From assembly GCF_001050015.1 (NCBI RefSeq), contig NZ_CVTB01000188.1, positions 5,271 to 69,270 on the forward strand: DNA of 64,000 bases. Reading direction: 5' to 3'. Below, one piece after another: positions 43,632-47,048 of the stretch (its first letter is position 1; each line of letters starts with the position of its first letter). The notes under the pieces are model-generated. The model worked only from the letters and a program-made list of their open reading frames with translations, did not search any database and had not been told where the DNA came from. A program made the position numbers and the translations under genes. The DNA is from Mycolicibacterium malmesburyense (GTDB taxonomy: Bacteria; Actinomycetota; Actinomycetes; Mycobacteriales; Mycobacteriaceae).

Positions 43632-46600
43632 GTGTTCGCCTGGTGGGGTCGAACGGTGTACCGGTATCGATACATCGTCATCGGCGTCATGGTTGCGCTC
43701 TGCCTCGGTGGCGGTGTCTACGGGATCAGCCTTGGCAACCACGTCACCCAGAGCGGCTTCTACGACGAGGGCAGCCAGTCCGTGCACGCCTCCGTGGTCG
43801 CCGACGAGGCCTTCGGCCGCGACCGGACCAGCCATGTCGTGGCGATCCTCACCCCACCCGACGGGGAGAAGGTCGATAACCCGAAGTGGCAGAGTGACGT
43901 CGTCGGCGAGCTCGATGACTTCGTCAAGGACCATCCCGATCAGGTGGTGAGCTGGGTCGGCTGGCTGCGGGCGCCCGACGCCGCGAGCGCGACCGTCCAG
44001 CAGATGAAGACGGCCGACCTGTCGAAGACCTTCGTCAGCATCCCGCTCAAGGGCGACACCGACGACGAGATCCTGAAGAACTACCAGGCCGTCGAACCGG
44101 ACCTACAACAAGTCAACGGCGGCCGCATCGAGCTGGCCGGCCTCAACCCGCTGGCCAGCGAACTGACCGGCAGCATTGGCGAGGACCAGCGCCGCGCGGA
44201 GGTCGCGGCCATTCCGCTGGTCTGTGTGGTGCTGTTCTTCGTGTTCGGCGGTGTGGTCGCCGCGGCCCTTCCCGGTGTTATCGGCGGGCTGACGATCGCC
44301 GGCGCGCTGGGCATCATGCGCCTGTTCGCCGAGTTCATGCCGGTGCACTTCTTCGCCCAGCCGGTGGTGACGCTGATGGGCCTCGGCATCGCGGTGGACT
44401 ACGGCCTGTTCATGGTGAGCCGGTTCCGCGAGGAGATCGCCGAGGGCTACGACACCGAGGCCGCGGTCAGGCGGACCGTGATGACCTCGGGCCGCACGAT
44501 CATGTTCTCCGCGGTGATCCTGGTGGCGTCCTCGGTGCCGCTGCTGCTGTTCCCGCAGGGCTTCTTGAAGTCGATCACGTACGCGATCATCGCCTCGGTC
44601 ATGTTGGCCGCGGTCCTGTCGGTGACGGTGCTGGCCGCGGCCCTGGGAATCCTCGGTCACCGCGTCGACGCGCTCGGCGTGCGCACCCTGCTGCGGTTCA
44701 CCAAGCCCTACCCGGCCCCGTCCCCGGCGGAGACCACCGACCGGATGAACCCGTTGGCGATCGCGTCCATCCCGCTGAGTGTGCTCATCCCGTTCGCCGC
44801 GATCCCCGTCGGCCACATCGCCAGGGCACAGATCCGACGCACGTACGACAAGGGCGCCAACTTCGCCCTGCTGGGATTGGTGCTCGGCTATGTCGGTTCG
44901 TTCGCCTGGATCTTCTACGGGCTGTTCGCGGCGAAGGACACCCTCGGATCGGGCATCTTCTATCTGCTGCTGGCCATCGCCATCTTCGTGGCAGGCACCA
45001 TCCTGGTGCTGTCGGCCGCGGGGTTGAGCCCGCTGGTCCGCAAGCCGACGGTGTGGTGGCTGAACTGGTTGGCGGAGAAGACGCAGAAGACCAAGACGCG
45101 CGCCGAGGTCGAGAAGGGCTTCTGGGGCAAGCTGGTCAACCGGGTGATGAAGCGCCCGATCGCGTTCGCCGCACCGATCGTCATCGTGATGATCCTGTTG
45201 ATCATCCCGCTGGGCCAGTTGTCGCTCGGCGGCATCAGCGAGAAGTACCTACCCCCGGACAATTCCGTGCGCCAGGCGCAGGAGGCGTTCGACAAGTCGT
45301 TCCCCGGTTTCCGCACCGAACCGCTGACGTTGGTGATCGAGAACGACAACGGCGACCCGGTCACCGAGCAGCAGGTAGCGGAGATCCGCAGCAAGGCGAT
45401 GATGATCCCCGGGTTCATCCAGCCCGAGGACGACCCGACGAAGATGTGGCAGCCGCGGCCGTACCAGGAGGGCGGTTCGGAGGATCCGGCGGTCCAGGTC
45501 ATCCAGAACGGCCTGGTGAACCGCAACGACGCGGCCAAGAAGGTCGAGGAGCTTCGGTCGATCGTGCCGCCGCGCGGCCTGTCGATCTCCGTCGGCGGCA
45601 CCCCCGCCCTGGAACAGGACAGTATCCACAGCCTGTTCGACAGGCTGCCGCTGATGGTGACCATCCTGATCGTCACCACCACGATCCTGATGTTCCTGGC
45701 GTTCGGCTCGGTGGTGTTGCCGATCAAGGCCGCGGTGATGAGCGCGCTCACGTTGGGCTCGACGATGGGCGTGCTGACCTGGATGTTCGTCGAGGGGCAC
45801 GGCTCCGGGCTGATGAACTACACCCCGCAGCCGCTGATGGCGCCGATGATCGGCCTGATCATCGCGGTCATCTGGGGTCTGTCGACCGACTACGAGGTGT
45901 TCCTGGTCTCGCGCATGGTCGAGGCCCGCGAACGCGGGCTGTCCACCGCCGAGGCCATCCGCGTCGGCACCGCGACCACCGGCCGGTTGATCACCGGTGC
46001 GGCGCTGGTGCTCGCCGTGGTCGCCGGCGCGTTCGTGTTCTCCGACCTGGTGATGATGAAGTACCTGGCGTTCGGCCTGCTGATCGCGCTGTTGCTCGAC
46101 GCCACCATCGTCCGCATGTTCCTCGTGCCCGCCGTGATGAAGCTGCTCGGCGACGACTGCTGGTGGGCGCCGCGGTGGATGAAGCGGATCCAGGAGCGGA
46201 TGGGCCTCGGCGAGACCGAACTGCCCGACGAACGCAAGCGCCCTGCGGTGCGGGAGGCCCCGGAGGATCCCGAGGCGCTGGTCGGCGCGGGTGCGCCGGT
46301 TCCGCCCCGGCCCCGTCCGCCGCACGACCCGACGCACCCCGCCGTCGCGGGACCGTCGCGCCCCGGCACCACCCGCGCCACACCGCAACGGGTTCCGTCG
46401 GCGACCGGCACGACGCGCATCCCCAGCACGCCACCGCCCGCGGCACCGGCCGACGAGCCGCAGACCACGCGGTTGTCGATGGCGAAGAACGCCGTGCGCA
46501 ACGCGGTGAGCAACGCCGCCGCATCGGCGCGCCAGGCCACCCGTCCTTCGGCGCCACCCCCGCCACCGACGCCGCCCCCGGCGGCCCCGCCGACTCCGCG

Positions 46601-47048
46601 CCCTGGCGCGGGGCGGCCGCCGCGCGAGGAACGCGAGATCGAGTCGTGGCTGGGCGAACTGCGGGGCACGGGCACGCCGCCCGCTCCGCCCGCGCCCACT
46701 CCGCAGCGGCCGTCGGCCGAACCCACCAGGGCTATGCCCACGGGAGCGCCGCCGGAGGGCCAACGGCCGCGTGTTGCGCCTCCGACGCCCGGCAACGAGC
46801 CGACGACAGCGATCCCGACACCGCGGTCACAGCCGCAAGGGCAGCCATCGGGGACCCCGCCCGAAGGCCGGGGAGACCCCGACGCGACGACGGCCATTCC
46901 GACCCCGGGCAGGCAGGCCGGCGGCGGTAAGCAGGGCGACGACGCCGAGGCGGCGACCGAGAAGCTCAATACCGGAGAGGACGCCGAGCGGCAGAATCGC
47001 GGTGGCCTCAGCGCTCAGGACCTGTTGCGGCGCGAGGGCCGGCTGTAG
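43632..47048 (+). CDS. mmpL3: Trehalose monomycolate exporter MmpL3 with inserted membrane domain
   Basis: This RND transporter moves trehalose monomycolate across the inner membrane. It starts at GTG 43632 after AGGAG. The proton-relay pairs are present: Asp256/Tyr257 in LGIAVDYGLFM (TM4) and Asp753/Tyr754 in GLSTDYEVFLV (TM10). Periplasmic domains follow TM1 and TM7. In MmpL3 proteins I know, the second pair lies about 110 residues earlier. The difference is an insert of ~123 residues (355-477) between TM6 and TM7, with DUF4190-like sequence and three hydrophobic segments. A Pro-rich cytoplasmic tail (about 870-1138) ends in the conserved LSAQDLLRREGRL. At 1138 residues it is longer than the M. 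smegmatis and M. tuberculosis proteins as I recall them. Confidence 0.96.
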   Translation: MFAWWGRTVYRYRYIVIGVMVALCLGGGVYGISLGNHVTQSGFYDEGSQSVHASVVADEAFGRDRTSHVVAILTPPDGEKVDNPKWQSDVVGELDDFVKDHPDQVVSWVGWLRAPDAASATVQQMKTADLSKTFVSIPLKGDTDDEILKNYQAVEPDLQQVNGGRIELAGLNPLASELTGSIGEDQRRAEVAAIPLVCVVLFFVFGGVVAAALPGVIGGLTIAGALGIMRLFAEFMPVHFFAQPVVTLMGLGIAVDYGLFMVSRFREEIAEGYDTEAAVRRTVMTSGRTIMFSAVILVASSVPLLLFPQGFLKSITYAIIASVMLAAVLSVTVLAAALGILGHRVDALGVRTLLRFTKPYPAPSPAETTDRMNPLAIASIPLSVLIPFAAIPVGHIARAQIRRTYDKGANFALLGLVLGYVGSFAWIFYGLFAAKDTLGSGIFYLLLAIAIFVAGTILVLSAAGLSPLVRKPTVWWLNWLAEKTQKTKTRAEVEKGFWGKLVNRVMKRPIAFAAPIVIVMILLIIPLGQLSLGGISEKYLPPDNSVRQAQEAFDKSFPGFRTEPLTLVIENDNGDPVTEQQVAEIRSKAMMIPGFIQPEDDPTKMWQPRPYQEGGSEDPAVQVIQNGLVNRNDAAKKVEELRSIVPPRGLSISVGGTPALEQDSIHSLFDRLPLMVTILIVTTTILMFLAFGSVVLPIKAAVMSALTLGSTMGVLTWMFVEGHGSGLMNYTPQPLMAPMIGLIIAVIWGLSTDYEVFLVSRMVEARERGLSTAEAIRVGTATTGRLITGAALVLAVVAGAFVFSDLVMMKYLAFGLLIALLLDATIVRMFLVPAVMKLLGDDCWWAPRWMKRIQERMGLGETELPDERKRPAVREAPEDPEALVGAGAPVPPRPRPPHDPTHPAVAGPSRPGTTRATPQRVPSATGTTRIPSTPPPAAPADEPQTTRLSMAKNAVRNAVSNAAASARQATRPSAPPPPPTPPPAAPPTPRPGAGRPPREEREIESWLGELRGTGTPPAPPAPTPQRPSAEPTRAMPTGAPPEGQRPRVAPPTPGNEPTTAIPTPRSQPQGQPSGTPPEGRGDPDATTAIPTPGRQAGGGKQGDDAEAATEKLNTGEDAERQNRGGLSAQDLLRREGRL
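44694..45062 (+). other. DUF4190-like membrane domain inserted in MmpL3 (residues 355-477)
   Basis: This in-frame segment interrupts MmpL3 between LGVRTLL and NWLAEKTQKTKT, where I recall only about 17 residues in M. tuberculosis MmpL3. It reads NPLAIASIPLSVLIP... GHIARAQIRRT ... GANFALLGLVLGYV, the hallmark pattern of DUF4190 proteins (small actinobacterial membrane proteins of unknown function), and is followed by a third hydrophobic stretch (SGIFYLLLAIAIFVAGTILV). Both junctions are clean, with no stop or frameshift, and base composition is like the host gene. Confidence 0.85.

Follow-up and report, generated by a model that had tools for sequence, protein, structure and literature searches.

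The transporter MmpL3 is essential and has been studied intensively as a drug target; its gene in Mycolicibacterium malmesburyense raises the question of how a second membrane domain came to lie inside the protein and what it does there. The gene lies in a 64,000-nucleotide stretch of contig NZ_CVTB01000188.1 (assembly GCF_001050015.1, positions 5,271 to 69,270), here called the window; coordinates below are window positions, and all features are on the + strand. In this MmpL3, a DUF4190 membrane module and one further helix replace the short linker between transmembrane helices 6 and 7 (TM6–TM7). Our overall reading, to which we assign a probability of about 0.5, is that this is a maintained module that forms a hairpin plus two spans, undergoes allelic exchange, and has an accessory role.

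A DUF4190 Module and an Extra Helix Replace the TM6–TM7 Linker

The mmpL3 gene (43632..47048) is an intact open reading frame of 1138 aa with a GTG start. By family assignment its product is MmpL3, the trehalose monomycolate exporter: the NCBIfam equivalog NF052608 (“trehalose monomycolate exporter MmpL3”) scores 1687.5 bits against a cut-off of 1400, and the Pfam MMPL domain matches with E 8.3e-66. PMC10171966 describes MmpL3 as a protein with 12 helices. A phmmer search against PDB aligned the window protein to chain 7k8b_A in two blocks, pairing residues 1–356 with 1–356 and residues 477–1138 with 369–1013. We take the first block (43632..44699), which aligns gaplessly, to comprise TM1, the first periplasmic domain, TM2–TM6, and the proximal TM6–TM7 loop, and the second (45060..47045) to comprise TM7–TM12, the second periplasmic domain, and the cytoplasmic tail.

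Between these blocks, a 12-residue stretch of 7k8b_A is swapped for 120 residues (357–476; 44700..45059), a net gain of 108, and the native linker is absent. The segment contains a DUF4190 (PF13828) match at residues 376–428 (44757..44915), which in the full protein reaches 43.1 bits (E 3.6e-11; gathering cut-off 35; profile positions 2–61 of 62); a 123-aa segment searched alone reaches 47.9 bits (E 1.1e-12). Beyond the Pfam match there is a third hydrophobic stretch, where hydropathy over 19 residues peaks near residue 450. The initial annotation, made from the sequence alone, had named a DUF4190-like domain with such a third stretch, inserted between TM6 and TM7 with the host resuming cleanly on either side, and all of this is borne out by the Pfam search, the hydropathy profile, and the two-block alignment. 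Its position of 355–477 was right to within a few residues; the boundaries are better drawn at 357–476, and the native linker is replaced, not interrupted.

The transporter around the segment is conserved. The Asp-Tyr pairs D256/Y257 of TM4 (44397..44402) and D753/Y754 of TM10 (45888..45893; 645/646 of 7k8b_A by offset), which we take to be the proton relay, are identical in 44/44 insert-bearing and 45/45 insert-less rows of the genome alignment introduced below. The alignment to 7k8b_A also reproduces, as a shift of 108, the late position of the TM10 pair noted in the initial annotation. Window residues 480–860 are 97% identical to the closest records.

All nine PDB MmpL3 sequences that matched align as two blocks around the segment site; residue-level alignments were examined for the three best chains, presumably all from M. 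smegmatis. In 7nvh_A, which we take to be M. tuberculosis MmpL3, residue 360 aligns with window residue 473, leaving 113 fewer residues ahead of it. Assuming that 7k8b_A is M. smegmatis MmpL3, the segment is missing from the proteins of both species, as the initial annotation had expected. The 7k8b and 7nvh proteins share the whole host scaffold, the relay residues, and the C-terminal tail with the window protein, and 7k8b_A differs in having a 12-residue linker where the window protein has a 120-residue membrane module.

About One in Five Sampled Genus Genomes Carry the Insert

Insert-bearing MmpL3 is found in about a fifth of the sampled genus genomes and is therefore not peculiar to the window. 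The comparison of orthologues proposed in the initial annotation shows a patchy distribution between species: a 200-aa query spanning the segment found the insert in 33 of 148 genus genomes (E 1e-20), and the N-terminal part of MmpL3 matched in all 148. MmpL3 was fetched from all 33 bearers and from 43 of the 115 nonmatching genomes, and every fetched protein was in the expected insert state. Six duplicate loci (L001–L004, L015, L016) were removed ahead of the resulting 89-row alignment.

A second set of 131 rows consisted of the window and 130 homologues, drawn from the insert search and the best 120 of 2983 host-part hits. In the stretch bounded by window residues 340 and 500, the 44 rows with the insert have 159–169 aa and the 87 insert-less rows have exactly 53; these rows were chosen partly for the insert, so 44/131 is not a frequency. 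No row of either set falls between 53 and 159 residues. An outlying mycobacterial MmpL3 (L104) has lost most of the TM6–TM7 linker, with 30 residues against 53 in the other insert-less rows, which suggests that the site is permissive and that shortening is tolerated too.

Scanning genome contigs yielded 18 loci, with titles that all name mycobacteria, Mycobacteriaceae, or Actinomycetota. Sixteen have the insert (six of these checked through whole-genome duplicates) and two, L017 and L018, lack it; bearers include M. novocastrense, M. lehmannii, M. tusciae, M. neglectum, M. barrassiae, M. deserti, and M. xanthum. Seventeen protein records show this architecture as well, and DUF4190-containing protein records extend the list to M. 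gadium, M. gallinarum, and M. litorale. In a family-wide sample the insert query matched in 18 of 251 genomes, with 7 matches in MmpL3-sized frames (already in the genus sample) and 11 in shorter frames.

The Insert Is Constrained Less than the Transporter

Codon comparisons point to purifying selection on the insert, with weaker constraint than on the transporter. The median ratio of nonsynonymous to synonymous substitution rates (dN/dS) is 0.23 for the insert, 0.10 for the N part, and 0.06 for the C part (55 pairs of 11 sequences from the window's group and its neighbor group). Seven insert residues—P387, G394, H395, R398, G408, G415, and Y420—are invariant in 44/44 insert-bearing genome rows. 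Insert DNA (residues 376–430) is 55–76% identical between the window and distant bearers, with most flanking blocks at 80–97%. Its composition is host-like, both in overall GC (66.7%; flanks 67.0 and 66.0) and at third codon positions (92.1%; flanks 91.8 and 95.9).

A Re-entrant Hairpin and Two Spans Are Predicted for the Module

Three hydrophobic stretches lie in the segment. Stretch 1 (residues 374–397; 44751..44822) shows a helix-break-helix near P387 in the AlphaFold2 models, and a basic loop, proposed to be cytoplasmic, follows it (residues 395–409; 44814..44858; 3–5 positive charges in 44/44 inserts). Models, hydropathy, and charge suggest an outward transmembrane helix for stretch 2 (residues 409–433; 44856..44930), and models and hydropathy an inward one for stretch 3 (residues 435–465; 44934..45026), which lies outside the Pfam domain. 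Helices at 374–385, 387–404, 409–433, and 435–465 appear in both AlphaFold2 models, one of residues 1–880 and one of residues 337–496. The first two have block values of the predicted local distance difference test (pLDDT) of 73–77 in the longer model and 53–58 in the shorter, which as a whole gives a helix-break-helix followed by a long helix at low confidence (block pLDDT 53–84). Placement of the module from the longer model was dropped, as that model is too poor.

Both ends of the segment join the cytoplasmic side, since PMC11352979 places the TM6–TM7 loop near the cytoplasm. With three hydrophobic stretches and both ends cytoplasmic, an even number must span the membrane; this parity argument, according to which one stretch is nonspanning, had been made in the initial annotation, and the charge data now single out stretch 1. 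Across the 44 inserts the loop after stretch 1 carries a mean of +3.9/−1.3 charges, and a 20-residue stretch over the loop between stretches 2 and 3 carries +0.9/−1.5; by the positive-inside rule this bias puts the first loop inside. Because an even number of spans is required and the first loop is inside, stretch 1 is best read as a hairpin. It is fairly likely, on these models and charges, that stretch 1 re-enters from the cytoplasmic side with its break near the invariant P387 and that stretches 2 and 3 are transmembrane helices. Such a hairpin with two spans would leave both segment ends cytoplasmic and the orientation of TM7–TM12 unchanged.

mmpL3 Alleles Probably Carry the Segment Between Lineages

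Bearers of the insert are spread patchily across the rpoBC tree. Phylogenies of rpoBC covered 60 chosen genomes, 31 bearers and 29 nonbearers picked mostly as near kin; 11 of the 148 genomes, including bearers G017 and G119, had no rpoB match at E 1e-150. The change counts hold for this 60-genome sample only, many insert-less genomes having been excluded by choice. A careful tree requires 11 state changes, at least 6 of them forced by well-supported branches; it was preferred to a quick tree with 12 changes, 8 forced. Bootstraps gave 10–12 changes and a single change in 0% of 200 trees. On rpoBC, one clade of all bearers is rejected (p 5e-114), as is one group of the 13 bearers in a 19-row clade that includes the window's kin (p 0.00015); the grouping of three smaller bearer sets without insert-less neighbors is not rejected (p 0.67, 0.59, 0.46). 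The tree of MmpL3 host parts likewise rejects a single bearer clade and has 7 changes, and the insert tree rejects those same 13 bearers as one clade (approximately unbiased test, p-AU 0.001).

The native linker motif bears on the choice between deletion and replacement. It is present in 44/45 insert-less genome rows (the exception is L104) and in 86/87 insert-less rows of the 131-row set (the exception is off by one pattern letter), and in 0/44 insert-bearing rows of that set. Deletion could not rebuild the native linker, which makes allelic exchange by homologous recombination the simplest account. As judged from sequence comparison, the segment is likely passed on through homologous recombination between mmpL3 alleles. 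The third helix and its junction look similar in every insert read, a point in favor of a single founding fusion.

Two observations concern mmpL3 itself. Insert-less rows with an ANW-type linker fall mostly in one clade on the MmpL3 host tree and in several places on rpoBC, which suggests transfer of mmpL3 among mycobacteria. In genome G037 (contig C221 near 13735; L043), a second MmpL3-like gene, with a 910-aa frame and 69% identity in the N-terminal part, is located ~3 kb upstream of the mmpL3 that bears the insert; G042 and G149 likewise have two MmpL3 N-terminal matches.

DUF4190 Proteins Elsewhere in These Genomes

DUF4190 is common in these genomes: PF13828 gave 1–9 matches in each of 42 genomes, including the MmpL3 one where the insert is present, and among 14 control genomes the only match, below cut-off, was in Corynebacterium glutamicum. 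With the MmpL3 match subtracted, stand-alone DUF4190 genes average 3.8 in 21 insert-less genomes and 3.7 in 12 bearers, which gives no sign of the fusion replacing a separate partner gene. DUF4190 proteins that stand alone or with DUF1707 (PF08044) share the N-LA, GH-A, IR-T, G-A, GL-LG pattern of the insert, and the insert differs in sitting inside another protein and in having a third helix beyond the Pfam model. In the protein search, the top stand-alone relative matches at E 6e-10.

Among paralogues taken from four genomes, those most similar to the inserts comprise DUF4190-cyclophilin proteins together with one multi-span DUF4190 protein. The cyclophilin fusions (PF13828 with PF00160) share the short DUF4190 type of the insert and differ in having DUF4190 at the N terminus, followed by a peptidyl-prolyl isomerase domain; the highest identity for this class is 54% over 50 residues, between the L008 insert and L032. 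Four such membrane-bound cyclophilins occur in bearer genomes, each with an N-terminal Pro/Tyr-rich stretch and DUF4190 (L023, where Pfam confirms the cyclophilin domain, and L019, L029, and L032, where it was recognized by sight). Four loci (L020, L024, L027, and L031) have two tandem DUF4190 genes with Pro-rich N-termini and matches ~400 bases apart.

A second transporter fusion is found in the family sample: L170:586-2610 encodes a 674-aa Sugar_tr/major facilitator superfamily (MFS) transporter with a C-terminal short-type DUF4190. It resembles the MmpL3 of the window in joining DUF4190 to a transporter and differs in that the fusion is terminal and the transporter of another superfamily. 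Its motif VVGYTQSGEPITG is much like one in the stand-alone DUF4190 proteins P0131 and P0147.

A Possible Accessory Role, and Its Alternatives

In a simulation described in PMC11352979, the dimer interface of M. smegmatis MmpL3 includes I340 of TM6 and residues 344–353 of the TM6–TM7 loop. That loop directly precedes the replaced segment, and the module lies past TM6 at its cytoplasmic end. Because the relay residues are unchanged and the module sits beside this simulated interface, it may be a fused accessory element affecting dimer or partner contacts at the TM6/TM7 face, a suggestion that we hold more weakly than the preceding ones. As an accessory subunit packed at that face, it would adjust dimer or partner contacts and not the proton relay or substrate path. 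AcrZ is a small accessory subunit of AcrB, a resistance-nodulation-division (RND) pump, and the proposed working, in which a small membrane element would modulate an RND transporter, is likened to it. The likeness extends to MmpS on other MmpL proteins (PMC10171966); it is one of proposed working, with no sequence relation claimed, and the module differs in being covalently inserted. According to the same paper, the C-terminal cytoplasmic domain of MmpL3 is involved in localization, protein contacts, and phosphoregulation.

Several results weigh against the combined reading. Median dN/dS is 2–4 times as high in the insert as in the flanks. The two AlphaFold2 models are weak (mean pLDDT 54.6 and predicted template modeling score 0.32 for residues 1–880; 63.8 and 0.41 for residues 337–496), and a Foldseek search of the insert model against PDB gave no match at E 0.001 (best E 2). 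The genome counts contain no partner signal, stand-alone DUF4190 genes being equally frequent in genomes of either insert state. The dimer contact comes from a simulation, and solved structures indicate a monomer according to the abstract of PMC11352979. The group G074, with a window-like insert and a host part beside E740, was considered as a sub-gene mosaic and set aside: its host C part groups with the window's, in agreement with the insert, and its N part is not rejecting (p 0.14), a point that is not decisive. Host positions associated with the insert were also sought; a large part of the strongest ones single out the same insert-less set of ~20 rows, and they were read as a sign of phylogeny and not of coupling.

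The main rival to an accessory role is a tolerated passenger, a module captured once in a permissive loop, with no role of its own and selected only for undisturbed folding. The raised dN/dS, the 115 of 148 genomes without a match, the unchanged relay residues, and the even shorter loop of L104 all fit this account, which we nevertheless consider unlikely, given a dN/dS well under 1, the seven invariant residues, and the gap between 53 and 159 residues in the 131 and 89 rows, where decay would be expected to leave intermediate lengths. A different history, in which the module is ancestral and was lost repeatedly, an insert-less allele taking its place on each occasion, is possible though doubtful. 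The insert is present in the first branch past the chosen outgroup (G092/G065), and many insert groups coincide with species groups; the insert tree, however, rejects the 13 bearers as one clade, and recombination is still required to restore the native linker. This history differs from ours in direction only and is partly compatible with it.

Three full spans, with TM7–TM12 inverted or in dual topology, would fit the three stretches with 19-residue hydropathy peaks ≥1.8. We regard this as very improbable: residues 480–860 are nearly unchanged in the closest records, both the relay residues and the basic segment that follows the insert are retained, and the established RND pseudo-symmetry would be broken. 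Nothing was found in favor of an annotation or assembly artefact, an intein, or a mobile element, whose probability is negligible given the insert's recurrence in 33 genomes and 17 protein records and its host-like composition. The insert has no inverted repeats and three short direct repeat pairs, taken for chance, and searches of viral contigs, plasmids, and phages with it gave no match. A more speculative proposal, rather improbable on present data, makes the TM6–TM7 loop a swappable cassette in which plain linkers and at least two diverged DUF4190 types recombine, the module being a built-in copy of a membrane partner that elsewhere acts in trans on MmpL3 and perhaps on other transporters. 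Were it true, DUF4190 would be a transporter-regulating family and mmpL3 would be under diversifying selection at one site.

Implications for MmpL3 Biology

Our literature search found no paper on DUF4190 with MmpL3 or on DUF4190 alone, nor, among the titles listed, any on such an insert; most subscription journals lay outside it, and the evidence for novelty is accordingly weak. Caution is advisable in regarding the M. smegmatis and M. tuberculosis proteins as the sole architecture of MmpL3. In a fair share of the genus, MmpL3 has additional membrane helices on its cytoplasmic face, at a place where dimer contact has been proposed. Insert-bearing and insert-less MmpL3 offer a natural comparison for the assembly and regulation of a drug target, and the insert provides a first functional lead for DUF4190.
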